From Sedimenticola hydrogenitrophicus (GTDB taxonomy: Bacteria; Pseudomonadota; Gammaproteobacteria; Chromatiales; Chromatiaceae): DNA of 64,000 nucleotides. How positions within the stretch are numbered: the first letter of the stretch is position 1; every line of letters starts with the position of its first letter. The position numbers and the translations under genes were made by a program. Below the pieces are notes generated by a model. It did not search any database, was not told the DNA's origin, and saw nothing but the letters and a program-made list of their open reading frames with translations. Shown here in pieces: positions 14,761 through 53,068 of this stretch. Location of the stretch: NCBI RefSeq assembly GCF_029017505.1, contig NZ_JAQGEI010000011.1, forward strand, positions 1 through 64,000, given 5' to 3'.

Positions 14761-14799
14761 TAAAATAACCGGCCCGGCATTGCCGGGCCGGTTATTTTA
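14761..14799. terminator. Bidirectional terminator palindrome
   Basis: This is a 39-bp perfect palindrome, TAAAATAACCGGCCCGGCA, one base, then its exact complement. The GC core flanked by A-run and T-run works as an intrinsic terminator in both directions. It stands between the converging LysE-type gene (+) and the DsrE gene (-). Confidence 0.85.
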
Positions 14800-14844: not shown

Positions 14845-15282
14845 TTACGGCCTAACGTAGGCGTAACCCTGCTCCTGCAGTTCCATGATGCGCAACACGC
14901 CGGCCTGGACCACCGAGACCCCTTCCAGGGGCACCGGCATTGTCCCGGTCTTCTTTTCCACAGCCTTCATGGTGTTGCCGCAGGCACTGAACTGGATGTC
15001 CTGCATCGCCAGGCTGGTGATACGTTGTCCCACTTTGGATTCGCTGGTGAGCATGCCGAGTCCGGGCCCATAGGCGACGATCTCAATCTGGACATTGTCC
15101 TGTCCCAGGGCATTTTGCAGATTGACGGCGTTGTTCAGGGCGATGGTCTGGGTGCGGGGGTCGTCGGTGCTGACCTGGATCACCACCTTGTGGGGGGCGC
15201 CTTCCGCGGCCAGCAGGGCCTGTCCGGTGAACAGGCCGAAAAACAGCAGCAGGGCCATCAGGCTATGGTTTATGGTTTTCAT
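14845..15282 (-). CDS. Secreted DsrE/DsrF-like sulfur-relay protein
   Basis: The 145-residue protein has a clear signal peptide (hydrophobic LMALLLFFGLFTG, cleavage near ALLAA at 25-26) and a single DsrE/DsrF-like domain (COG1416 type), so it should act in the periplasm. Its only conserved cysteine is Cys101 in FSACGNTM. The anti-sigma factor encoded just upstream has the same motif (FAACGNTL) and the same end (GYAYVRP against GWAYIKV), so the two domains are relatives. It follows that gene on the same strand, but a 162-bp repeat lies between them. Sulfane-sulfur binding is known for some DsrE proteins; for this one it is an inference. Confidence 0.85.
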   Translation of the reverse strand: MKTINHSLMALLLFFGLFTGQALLAAEGAPHKVVIQVSTDDPRTQTIALNNAVNLQNALGQDNVQIEIVAYGPGLGMLTSESKVGQRITSLAMQDIQFSACGNTMKAVEKKTGTMPVPLEGVSVVQAGVLRIMELQEQGYAYVRP

Positions 15283-15300
15283 CTTTCATCCTCTCTTTGG

Positions 15301-15462
15301 TTAGGCGATTTCTGTCAATGAACATCCCCGCTTGCTGGTCTTTTCGTCCCCCTGCCGCGTTGCCCCAGGCATCACATAATCCGACTATGCTTCGCCTGGG
15401 GCGCCTTGCAGGGAAACGAAAATTCTACGCAATCCAGGATGTTCATTTCCGGCAATCGCCTT
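15301..15462 (-). mobile_element. MITE-like 165-bp palindromic repeat family A, copy 1
   Basis: This 162-bp element starts TTAGGCGATTTCTGTCAATG and ends with the complementary arm TTTCCGGCAATCGCCTTA. The two halves are imperfect reverse complements over nearly the whole length, meeting near GGATTATG. Two further copies in the opposite orientation lie at 36049-36211 and 52904-53068. No open reading frame or transposase is present. This copy separates the anti-sigma gene from the secreted DsrE gene. Confidence 0.8.
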
Positions 15463-15524
15463 ATGGTCTGCAGCGTTTGGCTCTTTGGGTAGCGGCCGCT
15501 TACTGCAGTTGGTAATGGTCTGAA

Positions 15525-16244
15525 TCAGACCTTGATATAGGCCCAGCCGGTCTGCTGGCGCCGGGTAATATAAGAGATCCCGGAGCGGACGATCACCGCC
15601 TCCGGCACAATCTGAATCTGCTCGCCGGTCTCCTTGGTCATGCGCTCCAGGGTGTTGCCGCAGGCGGCGAATACCAGGTTGGGGTAGGTCTCGCTCAACC
15701 GCCGGATCCGCTCCGGAAAGGGCGAAAGCCCCTGCTGCATCAGCCGCAACCCCTGGTTGTTGGCCACCACCTCCAGGCGCAGTGGCTGCCCGCTGGCGCG
15801 ATGCTCCTCGAGGACCGTCTCCACCTGATCCAGCAGCAGCGCCGCGTCCTCGCGGCTGTCGCTGCTGATGTGGAACACCACCCGGGTCTGTGACGTCCGG
15901 GCGTCGCCGAAGGCGGCCAGCGGTGCCCGCCGGTTGTGATCGGAAGAGGAGGGCGCCTCGGTCACCAGCTGCACCGCGAACAGGGAGAGCCCGCCGATGG
16001 CGGCGGCCGTCAGATAACGGGTCAGGCCCCCGCCGGCGGCCAACGCCCGCCGTTCGCCGTTCTTCGGCCCGCTGAGCGGATAGGCCGCGCGGGTGAGTTC
16101 CTTCAGGTACTGCAACTGCAACAGCCGCCTGCGCAGCGGATCGGAATCGGCGGCCGCGCGCAGCAGCTCAAGGCGCTCCTGCGGGGCCAGTTCGTTGTCG
16201 ATGAAGGCGTTGAGCTGTTCGTCGCTGTAGTGGTCCGCGTTCAT
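15525..16244 (-). CDS. Anti-sigma factor with periplasmic DsrE domain
   Basis: The 239-residue membrane protein is probably the anti-sigma factor of the ECF sigma factor encoded directly upstream. Residues 1-55 (MNADHYSDEQLNAFIDNEL...) look like a short anti-sigma domain without the zinc HxxxCxxC motif. One membrane span lies at about 75-95. The periplasmic part (about 120-239) is a DsrE-like domain with one cysteine, Cys195 in FAACGNTL. The start is fixed by an ATGA overlap with the sigma gene; the frame stays open further upstream, but that is a shadow. Fusion of an anti-sigma region with a DsrE sensor is unusual. The domain calls are by motif and could be tested by structure prediction. 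Confidence 0.8.
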   Translation of the reverse strand: MNADHYSDEQLNAFIDNELAPQERLELLRAAADSDPLRRRLLQLQYLKELTRAAYPLSGPKNGERRALAAGGGLTRYLTAAAIGGLSLFAVQLVTEAPSSSDHNRRAPLAAFGDARTSQTRVVFHISSDSREDAALLLDQVETVLEEHRASGQPLRLEVVANNQGLRLMQQGLSPFPERIRRLSETYPNLVFAACGNTLERMTKETGEQIQIVPEAVIVRSGISYITRRQQTGWAYIKV

Positions 16245-16789
16245 TTGATACGCTCCATGAAGGGCCGGCCGTCGGTTTTTGCCCGCGTTTCCGACGCCAT
16301 CAGCTGTTTCAGTTGCTGTCGGGCGCGGCTCAGCCGGCTCATCACGGTACCCACCGGGATGCCGAGGATCTCCGCCACCTCGGCGTAGCTGCAGGCCTCC
16401 AGATCCACCAGCATCAGCACCTCCCGCCGCGCCGGGCTGAGCCGGGCGACGGCCTGGCGGACCCGGTCTACTGTCTGTTGTTGCAACAGCTGCTCGTCGG
16501 CGGGTTGCAGGGTGGGGTCGATGCACTCGTCGAAGCGATCGGCCGGCCGCTGGCGCCGGCAGTGATCGCGAAAACAGTTGGCCAGGATGGCGAAGGCCCA
16601 GCCCTCCAGCGCCGCCCCGTCCTTGAGCGAGGCGAGCCCGGCGAGCGCCCGGGTCAGCGCCTCCTGGGCCAGGTCATCGGCCAGGCTCTCCTCGCCGCAC
16701 CAGCCCAGTGCCAGGCGTCGGAGCCGCGGGCTCAGTGCCGCCAGCCGCTGCCGGTTTTTGCTCTCGTTGCGCCACGCGGTGAACATCAA
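16241..16789 (-). CDS. ECF-type RNA polymerase sigma factor
   Basis: The 182-residue sigma factor has only regions 2 and 4, as in the extracytoplasmic function class. Region 2 runs over LRRLALGWCGEESLADDLAQEALTRAL and the WAFAILANCFRDHCRR segment. Region 4 is LSPARREVLMLVDLEACSYAEVAEILGIPVGTVMSRLSRAR, with the helix-turn-helix. Its last bases overlap the start of the anti-sigma gene (ATGA), the usual arrangement of a sigma/anti-sigma pair. A possible self-recognised promoter lies 28 bp upstream of the gene. The regulon is unknown, but the periplasmic DsrE domain of the partner suggests an envelope sulfur or redox signal. Confidence 0.92.
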   Translation of the reverse strand: MMFTAWRNESKNRQRLAALSPRLRRLALGWCGEESLADDLAQEALTRALAGLASLKDGAALEGWAFAILANCFRDHCRRQRPADRFDECIDPTLQPADEQLLQQQTVDRVRQAVARLSPARREVLMLVDLEACSYAEVAEILGIPVGTVMSRLSRARQQLKQLMASETRAKTDGRPFMERIK

Positions 16790-16816
16790 ACAGCCGTCCC
16801 CTTTCCAGTTGTTGTG

Positions 16817-16847
16817 AATAAGACGCGGCAGCCGGTGGATTTATTCC
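16817..16847 (-). promoter_or_regulatory. Candidate ECF-type promoter of the sigma factor gene
   Basis: On the minus strand a GGAATAAA box (16847-16840) is followed after 15 bases by GTCTTATT (16824-16817), then GGAAAGGGGA as ribosome binding site and the sigma gene start. GGAA-type -35 boxes are typical of ECF promoters. This is a single occurrence, so support is weak. Confidence 0.35.
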
Positions 16848-16989: not shown

Positions 16990-19110
16990 CTATTCCCGGA
17001 AACGTTTGAACGAGCCCACCGCGCCGTCGAACCGCTGGCTCTCCGCGTCGGCCGTCGCCTCGCTGCCGCGCAGGGCCTTATCGAACTCGGCGAAGGCGTG
17101 GATCGGGGCCTCGCAGCGGGAGCCGTGACAGAGATAGGCCCTGCAATCCGCGCCGGCCGGCTTGAGGTTCAGGGCCTCCGGCAGGCCGCTGGCCGTGGCG
17201 GGGATGGCGAAGGTGAGGCGGCGCGGCGCATAGTGCCGGTTGGCCCGTTGCAGCCAGGGCTGCATGACCGCCGCCTCGCCCCGGAGGATGATCAGCTCGG
17301 TGGGGTTGATCAGCTCATCCAGCGCCTTCAGCAGGGTGCAGTGGGCGTGGGGGATCTGCCTGAGGTGCTCCCAGGCGCACTGCAGGGTGCGCTCGGCCGC
17401 CTGCAGATAGCGCACCTCGCCCAGCAGGTGGCCAAGCCGGGTGAGCACCGAGGCGGCCACGCCGTTGCCGGCCGGGATCGACTCATCGCCGAACGGCTTG
17501 GGGCGGTAGATCAGCGCCTCGTGGTCGTTGGAGGTGAAGTAGAAACCGCCCTGTTCGCGGTCCTCGAAGCGCTCCAGCAGGGTGTCGGCCAGGTCGCTGG
17601 CGAAGGCCAGCAGCCGGCTGTCCCACTGTGCCTGCAACAGCTCCAGCAGGGCATCGATCAGGTTGGCATAGTCGTCCAGATAGCCGTTCAGGTGGGTCTG
17701 GCCGTCCTTCCAGGCGGCCAGCAGGTGGCGGTCGCGCCATAGTTGCTGCTGGATGAAGTCGACGGCGCGGCGCGCCGAGGCGATCAGTCCCGGTTCGTCC
17801 AGCAGACGGCCGGCCCGCGCCAGCCCCTTGATCATCAGCGCGTTCCAGGTGGTGAGCACCTTCTCGTCCCGCCCGGGGCGTACCCGCAACGCCCGCCGCG
17901 CCAGCAGTTTCTCCCGGGCCTGTTGCAGCAGCTCCCGGGCCTGCTCCGGGCTGCTGCCCAGCTCGCGGCCGAGGGTGGCGAGATCGATATCGCCATGCAG
18001 GTGCCAGCGGCCCTCGAAGTTGGCCTCCCGGTCCAGTCCGTAGAAGTGGCTGAAATGGCGGTACTCCTGCTTGTCCAGCAGCTGTTCGACCTCGTCCCGG
18101 TCCCAGGCGTAGAAGCGCCCCTCGTGGCCCTCGCTGTCGGCATCCAGGGATGCGTAGAAGCCCCCTTCCGGGGACTGCATCTCGCTCATCACCCAGTGGG
18201 CGGTCCGCCGTGCGGTGTCGCGAAACAATGGCTTGCCGGTGGCCTGCCAGAGGTCGGCATAGAGGGCCAGCAGCGGGCCGTTGTCGTAGAGCATCTTCTC
18301 GAAGTGGGGGATCATCCACTGGTCGTCCACCGAGTAGCGGCAGAAACCGCCGGCGAGCTGATCATTGATCCCGCCCAGGGCCATCCGGGTCAGGGTGAAG
18401 TCCACCATGTAGAGGGAGCGGGGGTCGCCGGAGTCGGTGGCCGCCCAGTGCCTGAGCAGCTGCTCCAGGCTGCTGGGATGGGGGAATTTAGGGGCGTTGC
18501 CGAAGCCGCCATGGGTCTCGTCAAAACTGCTGCCCAGCTGCTGGCGGGCGGTCTCCAGCGGGGTCGAATCGAGGGTTGCGGCCTGACCGCCGGAAATCGG
18601 GTCGAGCTGACGGATGGCGCGGATCAGCGCCTGGTTCTGGCGCTCGATGTCGGGGCGCTGCTGGCGGTAGGCGGTGGCGATATTCTCCAGGATCGCCACA
18701 AAACCGGGCAGGCCGTGGCGCTCCTCCCTGGGGAAGTAGGTGCCGGCAAAGAACGGGGTCTGGTCGTGCGGGGTAAGGAACACCGTCAGCGGCCAGCCAC
18801 CGGGACGCTGGGCCAGCAGCTGGTGGGCCGACTGGTAGATCCGGTCCAGGTCGGGACGCTCCTCCCGGTCCACCTTGATGTTGACGAACAGCCGGTTCAT
18901 CACCGCGGCGGTGGCCGCATCCTCGAACGATTCATGGGCCATCACGTGGCACCAGTGGCAGGCGGAGTAGCCGATGGAGAGCAGGATCGGCTTATCCTCC
19001 CGGCGCGCCTTTTCCAGCGCCTGCTCGCCCCAGGGATACCACTCCACCGGATTGTCGGCATGCTGTAGCAGATAGGGGCTGGTGCACTGGCTCAGGTGAT
19101 TGCTGGGCAT
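16990..19110 (-). CDS. DUF255/YyaL thioredoxin-like and six-hairpin glycosidase-like protein
   Basis: The 706-residue protein belongs to the YyaL/SPATA20 family. Residues 1-160 form a thioredoxin-like DUF255 domain with the motif [20 protein letters not shown], in which CHWCH replaces CxxC, and [13 protein letters not shown]. The remainder is an alpha/alpha toroid resembling glycosidases, with [33 protein letters not shown] and [19 protein letters not shown]. Its biochemical role is not established in the family. It has no signal peptide, so it is cytoplasmic. It seems to be a single-gene unit with repeats on both sides. Confidence 0.9.
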
Positions 19111-36048: not shown

Positions 36049-36211
36049 TTAGACGATTGCCGGAAATGAATATCCCGGATTGCGTAGGATTTTAGTTTCC
36101 CTGCAAGGCGCCCCAGACGCAGCCTGTTCGGACTATGCGATGCCTGGGGCAACGCCGCAGGGGGACGAAACGACCAGTAAGCCGGGATGTTCATTGACAG
36201 AAATCGCCTTA
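36049..36211 (+). mobile_element. MITE-like 165-bp palindromic repeat family A, copy 2
   Basis: This 163-bp copy begins TTAGACGATTGCCGGAAATG and ends GACAGAAATCGCCTTA, with the central block CCCCAGACGC...GCCTGGGGC. It is in the same orientation as 52904-53068 and opposite to 15301-15462. Its last three bases are the stop codon of apaG on the minus strand. Confidence 0.82.
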
Positions 36212-52903: not shown

Positions 52904-53068
52904 CTTAGGCGATTGACGGAAATGAACATCCTGGATTGCGTAGGATTTTTGTTTCCCTGCAAGGCGCCCCAGGCGAAGCATAGTCGGACTATGTGATGCC
53001 TGGGGCAACACCGCAGGGGGACGAAAAGACCAGCAAGCCGGGATGTTCATTGACAGAAATTGCCTTAG
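52904..53068 (+). mobile_element. MITE-like 165-bp palindromic repeat family A, copy 3
   Basis: This 165-bp element runs from CTTAGGCGATTGACGGAAATG to GACAGAAATTGCCTTAG, with the central CGCCCCAGGCGAAGC and GATGCCTGGGGC arms. It sits between purH and fis, and its last bases make the fis stop codon (TTA at 53065-53067). It resembles 36049-36211 closely. Confidence 0.85.

Follow-up and report, generated by a model that had tools for sequence, protein, structure and literature searches.

We identified in the genome of a sulfur-oxidising Sedimenticola a three-gene system that is probably a transmembrane switch, made of an ECF sigma factor and an anti-sigma factor with a DsrE-fold sensor predicted to be periplasmic, triggered by sulfane sulfur and controlling sulfur-oxidation genes. 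The system lies on the minus strand, at positions 14845-16847 of the window (the whole 64,000-nucleotide stretch of DNA that was analyzed). Its three genes code for the sigma factor, for the membrane-bound anti-sigma factor, whose gene overlaps the first, and for a secreted protein made of one DsrE domain. All three genes were found where the initial annotation had placed them (Table 1).

Table 1. Features of the sigma/anti-sigma/DsrE locus, in window coordinates
Feature	Position	Strand	Basis
ECF-type promoter of sigma operon, -35 GGAATAAA, -10 CGTCTTA	16819..16847	-	Motif conservation
ECF sigma factor, 181 aa from ATG (182 aa if TTG at 16789)	16241..16786	-	Pfam, congener alignment
Membrane anti-sigma factor, 239 aa	15525..16244	-	ORF, start overlapping sigma stop (ATGA)
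Putative membrane span of anti-sigma factor, residues 77-95	15960..16016	-	Hydropathy
DsrE-fold domain of anti-sigma factor, residues 120-239, predicted periplasmic	15528..15887	-	Sequence and fold comparison
Cys195, sole cysteine of anti-sigma protein	15660..15662	-	In 51/51 aligned sequences
MITE-like palindromic repeat between anti-sigma gene and dsrE	15303..15461		33-nt inverted ends
Secreted single-domain DsrE-like protein, 145 aa, hydrophobic signal-like start	14845..15282	-	Pfam DsrE, 1l1s, AlphaFold
Cys101, sole cysteine of secreted DsrE protein	14980..14982	-	In 19/19 aligned sequences
G+C-rich hairpin with flanking A/T runs, past DsrE gene	14763..14799		Terminator-like on both strands

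The sigma factor matches the Pfam models Sigma70_r2 (E 1e-11) and Sigma70_r4_2 (E 2.8e-18), the two regions recognized in the initial annotation, and the 18 Pfam families listed include no region 3 model. This composition of regions 2 and 4 only, in 181-182 residues where about 180 are typical, and a common ECF-type motif upstream of the gene itself, seen in 47 of 69 loci, assign it to the ECF (group 4) sigma factors. The ATG at 16786 is a better candidate for its start codon than the TTG at 16789, because the ORF begins at residue 2 in most congeners. The stop of the sigma gene and the start of the anti-sigma gene share the ATGA at 16241-16244, in agreement with the overlap reported before.

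The second protein is predicted, by analogy, to be a membrane anti-sigma factor of the class I type that binds and inhibits the sigma factor. In its AlphaFold model the N-terminus forms helices at residues 8-15, 21-32 and 35-54, which fit a class I anti-sigma domain, and no curated domain model scores over its cut-off there. The membrane span is placed by hydropathy only, with a best 19-mer of 1.59 at residues 77-95 and values above 1.3 in 50 of 51 relatives; AlphaFold confidence is low at residues 58-116, and the model does not resolve the putative span. Zinc-type sensing in the cytoplasmic part was rejected, as the Hx3Cx2C motif occurs in none of the 51 aligned full-length anti-sigma sequences, which sets them apart from the ZAS type. 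The motif was already said to be lacking from the start of the protein, and this holds despite a weak resemblance to zf-HC2 (E 0.095 in the window anti-sigma factor; E <= 0.01 in 3 of the 16 members of the anti-sigma set A1).

The C-terminal part of the anti-sigma factor resembles the secreted protein, as had been proposed from shared motifs, both by BLASTP (E 9e-12, 27% identity) and by profile-profile comparison (E 1.6e-26), the latter aligning Cys195 to Cys101. It also matches the solved DsrE-like protein MTH1491 (1l1s; phmmer E 1.3e-10), and the fold comparison suggested by the initial annotation, run with Foldseek, assigned it to the DsrE fold (1l1s, E 3.5e-10; 2hy5_A, E 4.9e-4). A chance motif as the source of the resemblance was rejected by these BLASTP, phmmer, Foldseek and profile-profile matches. 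The Pfam DsrE model has no match in the window anti-sigma factor and matches 3 of the 16 members of set A1, so that routine annotation can miss DsrE in anti-sigma factors.

Each of the 51 aligned full-length sequences carries a single cysteine in its periplasmic part, at the Cys195 position; the His125 position is 98% conserved and the GWxY end nearly invariant. The sensor cysteine column (Cys195/Cys101) coincides with Cys78 of the DsrE of the same genome, in a weak alignment of low hhalign probability, and Cys78 has been shown to be the sulfur-carrying residue of A. vinosum DsrE (PMC3397948). The DsrE fold might instead be a module that has a structural role or binds a different ligand, such as a metal, sulfite or a peptide, with a cysteine that carries no sulfur. 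DsrEFH alone was unable to mobilise sulfur from thiosulfate or glutathione persulfide (PMC3397948), as this would predict, but a single, strictly kept cysteine with neither a second cysteine nor a zinc motif, in host genomes that nearly all have soxB, makes such a module unlikely.

The secreted protein belongs to the DsrE family according to Pfam (E 1.3e-5; 25.8 bits against a cut-off of 22.7) and matches 1l1s, with a mean pLDDT of 89.8 in AlphaFold; its signal-like start was judged by eye. Its gene is either part of the sigma operon or preceded by a sigma-type site in divergent orientation. In several metagenome-assembled genomes (MAGs), a second sigma factor with a cysteine-rich anti-sigma factor directly follows the DsrE gene. 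The MITE-like repeat is an insertion and stands outside the conserved system; it has many matches in two genomes (G000 and G001) and none in eight other genomes searched. The hairpin past dsrE contains terminator-like sites at 14774-14791 (+) and 14786-14769 (-).

Full-length relatives of the anti-sigma factor occur in 66 of 369 genomes of the class, the window genome being counted in both numbers; the 66 genomes come from 40 families. A match was counted as full-length when it began no later than profile position 12 and reached at least position 240. The co-occurrence that the initial annotation had proposed to survey is widespread: a sigma gene lies directly upstream of 69 of the 79 distinct anti-sigma ORFs, the order of class I anti-sigma genes, and a separate DsrE gene lies within six ORFs of 64; in the other 15 it is absent there, some of them being near contig ends. 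Gene calls around the loci followed a longest-ORF heuristic, and some ORFs are mis-called; the gene cluster labelled SOXB includes two genes, L096 and L187, indistinguishable from 5'-nucleotidases. In plasmids, 19 records matched a search for full-length relatives, none over more than 80% of the query. In a phylum sample of 349 genomes, 12 match: three of the class at full length, and nine outside the class in the DsrE part. Some of these nine have a hydrophobic stretch before the DsrE part. No related sigma gene lies within about 1.5 kb in the seven loci returned for out-of-class DsrE matches.

We compared the gene content of the genomes with and without the system at E <= 1e-60. soxB is found in 65 of the 66 genomes with the system and in 86 of the 303 without it, a comparison spread over 40 families and otherwise uncorrected for kinship. 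For dsrA the figures are 52 of 66 and 65 of 303, and for the control nifH they are 10 of 66 and 27 of 303 (P-value 0.17). The totals at this threshold are 151 (soxB), 117 (dsrA) and 37 (nifH) genomes, while the curated cut-offs are exceeded in 148, 112 and 31. None of the 206 genomes lacking both soxB and dsrA carries the system.

The motif GGAATA-N15-17-CGTC lies upstream of 47 of the 69 related sigma genes and is missing from 22. Among other genes it precedes 5 of 1,361 with duplicates included, and 4 of 1,224 after duplicate removal and with a different upstream window. The promoter boxes are kept in five congeneric loci with a variable spacer, one locus having CGTCC. The motif is also found upstream of the divergent dsrE in 13 of 25 cases, and divergent dsrE-porin genes are among the site-bearing genes. 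It is presumably read by the DsrE-linked sigma factor.

We applied two separate criteria, a motif model trained on the sigma promoters and the strict pattern, to the surroundings of soxB in 63 of the 65 soxB-positive genomes with the system (G164 and G322 were left out). As controls we used 20 genomes hand-picked among the 86 with soxB and no full-length anti-sigma factor, all outside the 103 matching genomes. The model places a site before soxX, soxY or soxB in 22 of the 63 genomes with the system and in 1 of the 20 without it; by gene, this corresponds to 31 of 115 and 1 of 39 sox genes, where the 31 ORFs include two overlapping ones of locus L251 sharing one site, and the shuffles were of single bases. 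The strict pattern occurs 38 times in 973 kb around soxB in the genomes with the system and once in 345 kb in the controls, while 57 scrambled patterns gave a mean of 3.9 and a maximum of 13 sites. Twenty-seven of the 38 strict sites lie shortly before soxX, soxY or soxB, and three are sigma promoters themselves, from loci L189-L191 where the system is beside soxB. In one genome the sigma and anti-sigma genes and true soxX, soxY, soxZ, soxA and soxB follow each other on the same strand.

These sites could in principle belong to a different ECF sigma factor, encoded in the same genomes and sharing the promoter preference, which would drive sox and leave the DsrE system to regulate only itself and the porin. 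The second sigma factors next to DsrE genes in MAGs would be candidates for this role, and one soxB genome without the system (L301) has a good site before soxX; we nevertheless regard it as very improbable, given that the model was trained solely on promoters of DsrE-linked sigma genes and that soxB genomes lacking the system have sox sites less often (the 1 of 20 above).

In a further set, 20 of 64 strict sites were followed up, and only eight of them lie before sulfur-related genes, several of which were named by eye: soxX-soxY, soxY-soxZ, two Sulf_transp (SoxT-like) genes, two secreted DsrE genes, an MBL-fold protein and a DUF302 protein. The Sulf_transp genes lie 74 bp downstream of the site in two genomes, and in a genome of the same family as the window genome a site is 88 bp upstream of another secreted DsrE gene. 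One further site precedes a sigma/anti-sigma-like pair and one a cytochrome-like gene; the remaining sites stand before unrelated genes, rpsA among them, or before no clear gene. The link to sox may reflect shared lifestyle only, the system answering general envelope or thiol-oxidation stress with sox genes as occasional targets. The 41 of 63 genomes with the system and no scored site before soxX, soxY or soxB, the window genome among those without one, and the presence of porin genes among the targets would suit this reading. It is, however, improbable in view of the gathering of sites before sox, SoxT-like, secreted DsrE and porin genes, of the absence of the system from genomes without soxB and dsrA, and of the fact that no classical envelope-stress gene was recognized by eye after the 20 followed-up sites.

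In the window genome itself, the exact strict pattern occurs once in 5.13 Mb. Five looser sites reach 12.6-18.3 when the spacer term is left out, where the sigma promoter reaches 26.7; none of the five has a convincing target, and in this genome the sigma operon alone has a convincing site. We rejected the idea that soxX, soxY and soxB of this genome are directly controlled from a promoter of this type, since the best score there in the sigma-promoter model is 2.1 bits and no site was found. The sulfur signal put forward in the initial annotation is upheld in part: it is favored because soxB co-occurs with the system and sites precede sox genes in relatives, and its proposed form, sulfane sulfur on Cys195 passed on by the secreted DsrE, would be one way to carry it. 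The promoter, the porin and sox targets and the lack of a site at the sox genes of the window genome go beyond the initial annotation.

Most likely, the system reports periplasmic sulfane sulfur and controls sulfur-oxidation genes; we infer the signal and the cysteine-to-cysteine transfer. In the resting state, the helical N-terminus of the anti-sigma factor would keep the sigma factor at the membrane, as in the class I type. Periplasmic sulfane sulfur, in the form of a persulfide, polysulfide, thiosulfonate or Sox-derived carrier, would load the single cysteine of the DsrE domain, either directly or via the secreted DsrE protein. The change would cross the single membrane span and free the sigma factor by conformational change or proteolysis. 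The freed sigma factor would then read GGAATAAA-N13-15-CGTCT promoters, namely that of its own operon in the window genome and, in related genomes, also those of the divergent dsrE-porin operon, sox genes, SoxT-like transporters and other secreted DsrE genes.

The part played by the secreted DsrE protein, and hence the sign of its feedback, may be of two kinds. Tentatively, it would act in a relay, taking sulfur from the Sox pathway or polysulfide and passing it from cysteine to cysteine to the anti-sigma factor, upon which the sigma factor would activate sox, SoxT, porin and DsrE genes. It could also be a brake that scavenges periplasmic sulfane sulfur or strips Cys195 and so resets the switch, with the DsrE domain of the anti-sigma factor sensing a small molecule or SoxYZ-bound sulfur directly, a reading to which we give somewhat less than an even chance. 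Either location of the secreted gene, within the sigma operon or after a divergent site, is what negative feedback would have, and the 15 of 79 systems with no separate DsrE gene within six ORFs point the same way; the same layout, however, fits a positive relay.

Class I anti-sigma factors of the RseA, RskA and RsiW type (PMC7406223) likewise have adjacent sigma and anti-sigma genes, an N-terminal helical part, one span (predicted here), an extracytoplasmic domain and a motif upstream of their own gene. The system described here differs in its DsrE-fold sensor, in the lack of a zinc motif and in the free copy of the sensor domain usually encoded nearby. Its predicted sensor has the fold of a sulfur-carrier protein and a single cysteine. 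DsrE/TusD and MTH1491 (1l1s) share the fold and the conserved cysteine with this sensor; DsrEFH is a cytoplasmic hexamer (PMC3397948), whereas here the DsrE domain either forms part of an anti-sigma factor or is secreted as a protein of its own. No anti-sigma factor with DsrE was found in the literature searched, which comprised the main texts of freely accessible papers.

Other regulators resemble the system in part. RpoE1/RpoE4 of Sinorhizobium meliloti (ECF26) are likewise ECF sigma factors with a part in sulfur metabolism (thiosulfate, taurine, sulfite; sorT), but their target is sulfite dehydrogenase, their signal is thought to be made inside the cell, and DsrE goes unmentioned, DsRed being the single similar word (PMC3511301). 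ECF sigma factors 2 and 7 of Arcobacter butzleri also alter sox transcription, with broader energy-metabolism targets and with no mention of DsrE in the source (PMC3445524). The ArsR-type repressors SoxR and sHdrR, with SoxT, likewise exert cysteine-based sulfane-sulfur control of sox genes (PMC11582611, PMC12423496); they are two-cysteine repressors acting on DNA, SoxR relying on SoxT1B as its signal unit, whereas here a one-cysteine domain is predicted to be periplasmic. RsrS-RsrR of Acidithiobacillus caldus and the CsoR-type TTHA1953 of Thermus also regulate sulfur oxidation (PMC5093147, PMC10318464) and belong to other protein families, the two-component system RsrS-RsrR sharing with our switch a membrane-to-DNA route.

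External-sulfur sensing by the regulators of sulfur oxidisers has been called poorly understood, and the repressor SoxR needs the membrane protein SoxT1B for its signal (PMC11582611). The widespread ECF switch described here would be a direct transmembrane route for sulfur sensing, and its predictions are concrete: one cysteine, one promoter and a well-delimited set of genes. Secreted DsrE proteins and the porin family beside them thereby also acquire a candidate function. If the relay is true, extracytoplasmic sulfur would be detected with no need to import it, in at least 40 families of Gammaproteobacteria. Related switches appear to govern genes of thiosulfate oxidation, and the system may show how sulfur oxidisers detect outside sulfur.

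The initial annotation had read the C-terminal part of the window's anti-sigma factor as DsrE-like, and our comparisons bear this out. Residues 120-239 match the secreted DsrE protein encoded in the same operon and also, by sequence and predicted structure, MTH1491; hit number 4 of the domain in Foldseek is 2hy5_A, the DsrE of DsrEFH. A profile comparison between 16 anti-sigma factors and 19 secreted proteins (E 1.6e-26) aligned Cys195, the only cysteine of the window anti-sigma factor, to Cys101, the only one of the secreted protein. Pfam detects the domain in just 3 of the 16 profiled anti-sigma factors, which may be why it has so far remained unnamed. In the AlphaFold model of the anti-sigma factor, three N-terminal helices and the DsrE fold are predicted with confidence, and the poorly predicted stretch between them contains the best hydrophobic segment.

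All 51 distinct full-length anti-sigma sequences, including that of the window, have a cysteine at the position of Cys195, and the periplasmic part of each contains exactly one cysteine. The zinc motif, already described as missing from the window protein, is absent throughout (Hx3Cx2C in 0 of 51). Aligned to the DsrE of the same genome, the sensor cysteine falls on Cys78; since this alignment is weak, we take the match only as a hint. Cys78 is reported to bind sulfur in A. vinosum DsrE (PMC3397948), and the DsrE3A of one archaeon is reported to take up a thiosulfonate from tetrathionate (PMC4175335).

Features of the sigma factor locus in the window, in order of transcription
Feature	Position	Strand	Remark
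ECF-type promoter	16819-16847	minus	first in order, followed by the sigma gene
ECF sigma gene	16241-16786	minus	
anti-sigma gene	15525-16244	minus	overlaps the sigma gene by ATGA
MITE-like palindromic element	15303-15461		33-nt inverted ends; between anti-sigma and dsrE
gene for secreted DsrE protein	14845-15282	minus	strong hairpin after the gene

The repeat element splits the operon in both the window genome and its nearest relative. It has 33 and 36 matches in these genomes, respectively (palindromes can count on both strands), whereas the remaining 8 genomes searched gave no match; further long copies lie in the window at 36054-36202 and 52908-53058. The anti-sigma proteins of the window and of S. 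hydrogenitrophicus SB48 share 97% identity. A gene of 706 aa (16990-19110), whose product we take to be thioredoxin-like, of the DUF255 type, lies immediately upstream of the sigma gene; several related MAGs have it in the same place. The window genome also has soxB, several DsrE-family genes and two dsrA genes (G000:C8:126612-127817 and G000:C17:72604-73803).

The anti-sigma protein found matches in 20 of 55 genomes (its own and relatives), some of them through the DsrE part only. Within the class, the profile matched 103 of 369 genomes, and full-length anti-sigma factors were present in 66, spanning 40 families. The phylum sample of 349 genomes returned full-length matches in three, all inside the class and none outside it. 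Over 79 distinct anti-sigma ORFs, two layouts were counted: dsrE directly downstream of sigma and anti-sigma (38), and dsrE divergent from these two genes (24). The divergent dsrE is often followed by a porin gene (divergent porin in 21 of the 79), and two of the three copies scanned matched Porin_O_P. At six loci (L141, L145, L147, L152, L162, L176) the DsrE gene is followed by a second sigma gene and a cysteine-rich anti-sigma-like gene (cluster c21).

The system is tied to sulfur oxidation by gene co-occurrence, in counts uncorrected for descent: none of the 206 genomes lacking both soxB and dsrA holds the system, which is present in 51 of 105 genomes with both genes, 14 of 46 with soxB only and 1 of 12 with dsrA only. 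In the same uncorrected counts, soxB was found in 65 of the 66 genomes with the system and 86 of the 303 without (P-value 9e-29), dsrA in 52 and 65, and the control gene nifH in 10 and 27 (P-value 0.17), respectively. One genome has sigma, anti-sigma, soxX, soxY, soxZ, soxA and soxB consecutively on one strand, with the Sox genes confirmed by NCBIfam, and in two further genomes the sox cluster adjoins the system. DsrE-family genes also lie beside soxZ-soxB on a Methylosinus plasmid, and adjoin a SoxB-like/5'-nucleotidase gene, a porin and a YeeE transporter on a Runella plasmid; in both cases the DsrE proteins stand alone and do not form part of an anti-sigma factor.

The motif GGAATA-N15-17-CGTC precedes 47 of 69 sigma genes, compared to 5 of 1,361 other genes (4 of 1,224 without duplicates), and 13 of 25 divergent dsrE genes, compared to 2 of 38 collinear ones. 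We propose that it is read by the sigma factor of the system. Around soxB, 63 genomes with the system contain 38 sites of the strict pattern given below, over 973 kb of sequence: 27 a short distance ahead of soxX, soxY or soxB, 3 sigma promoters at loci where the system adjoins soxB, and 8 others. Twenty soxB genomes without the system contain 1 site in 345 kb, and 57 scrambled patterns gave a mean of 3.9 sites (maximum 13) and 1.4 sites in the two groups, respectively. A motif model trained on sigma promoters alone, at a threshold of 13 bits or more that 0.1% of shuffled sequences reach, placed sites ahead of sox genes in 31 of 115 cases (22 of 63 genomes) where the system is present and 1 of 39 (1 of 20 genomes) where it is absent (P-value 0.009 when genomes are counted and 0.0005 when genes are counted). 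Over the full length of the 66 genomes there are 64 occurrences of the strict pattern GGAATAAA-N13-15-CGTCT, with at least one in 42 genomes, compared to 13 for the reversed pattern. Among 20 strict sites inspected, 8 precede sulfur-related genes, including soxX-soxY, soxY-soxZ, two SoxT-type Sulf_transp transporters and two secreted DsrE genes, and others precede unrelated genes. A genome of the same family as the window's (G017) has a 21.9-bit site 88 bp ahead of another secreted DsrE gene, which lies outside the sigma locus (L127). The one genome with the system where soxB was not found (G088, 93% complete) has a strict site ahead of a DUF302 gene (L323); DUF302 also adjoins soxB-DsrE-DsrE on a Methylosinus plasmid (L188).

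Not all observations fit control of sox genes. In 41 of the 63 genomes with the system there is no scored site ahead of soxX, soxY or soxB, and one control genome (G097) has a site ahead of soxX (L301) although the DsrE anti-sigma profile finds no match there. In the window genome, the motif model gives no site for soxX, soxY or soxB (best 2.1 bits), and we reject direct control of these genes through the motif in this genome. There, the strict pattern is found ahead of the sigma gene only, and five looser sites have lower scores and no convincing target. This leaves the operon, with its secreted DsrE gene, as the visible target in the window genome.

S. meliloti (RpoE1/RpoE4, PMC3511301) and A. 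butzleri (sigma 2/7, PMC3445524) are known to have ECF sigma factors with a link to sulfur, and DsrE is mentioned in neither report. Among the reported sulfane-sulfur regulators of sox are repressors of the ArsR type with SoxT (PMC11582611, PMC12423496), and regulators of sulfur oxidation also include a two-component system (PMC5093147) and one of the CsoR type (PMC10318464). In line with the initial annotation, which knew of no sigma system with a DsrE sensor, the literature searched contained no description of such an anti-sigma factor. We assign the system to the ECF/anti-sigma kind, with the DsrE anti-sigma factor as its new feature.

Alongside the observed fold, cysteine, gene linkage, co-occurrence and motif distribution, the system most likely works through sulfane sulfur, Cys195 and release of the sigma factor. 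Periplasmic sulfane sulfur would load Cys195, either directly or by way of the secreted DsrE, whose effect on the switch may be positive or negative, and the loaded anti-sigma factor would let the sigma factor go. The freed sigma factor would raise the operon that encodes it and, in many related genomes, also sox, SoxT, porin and DsrE genes.
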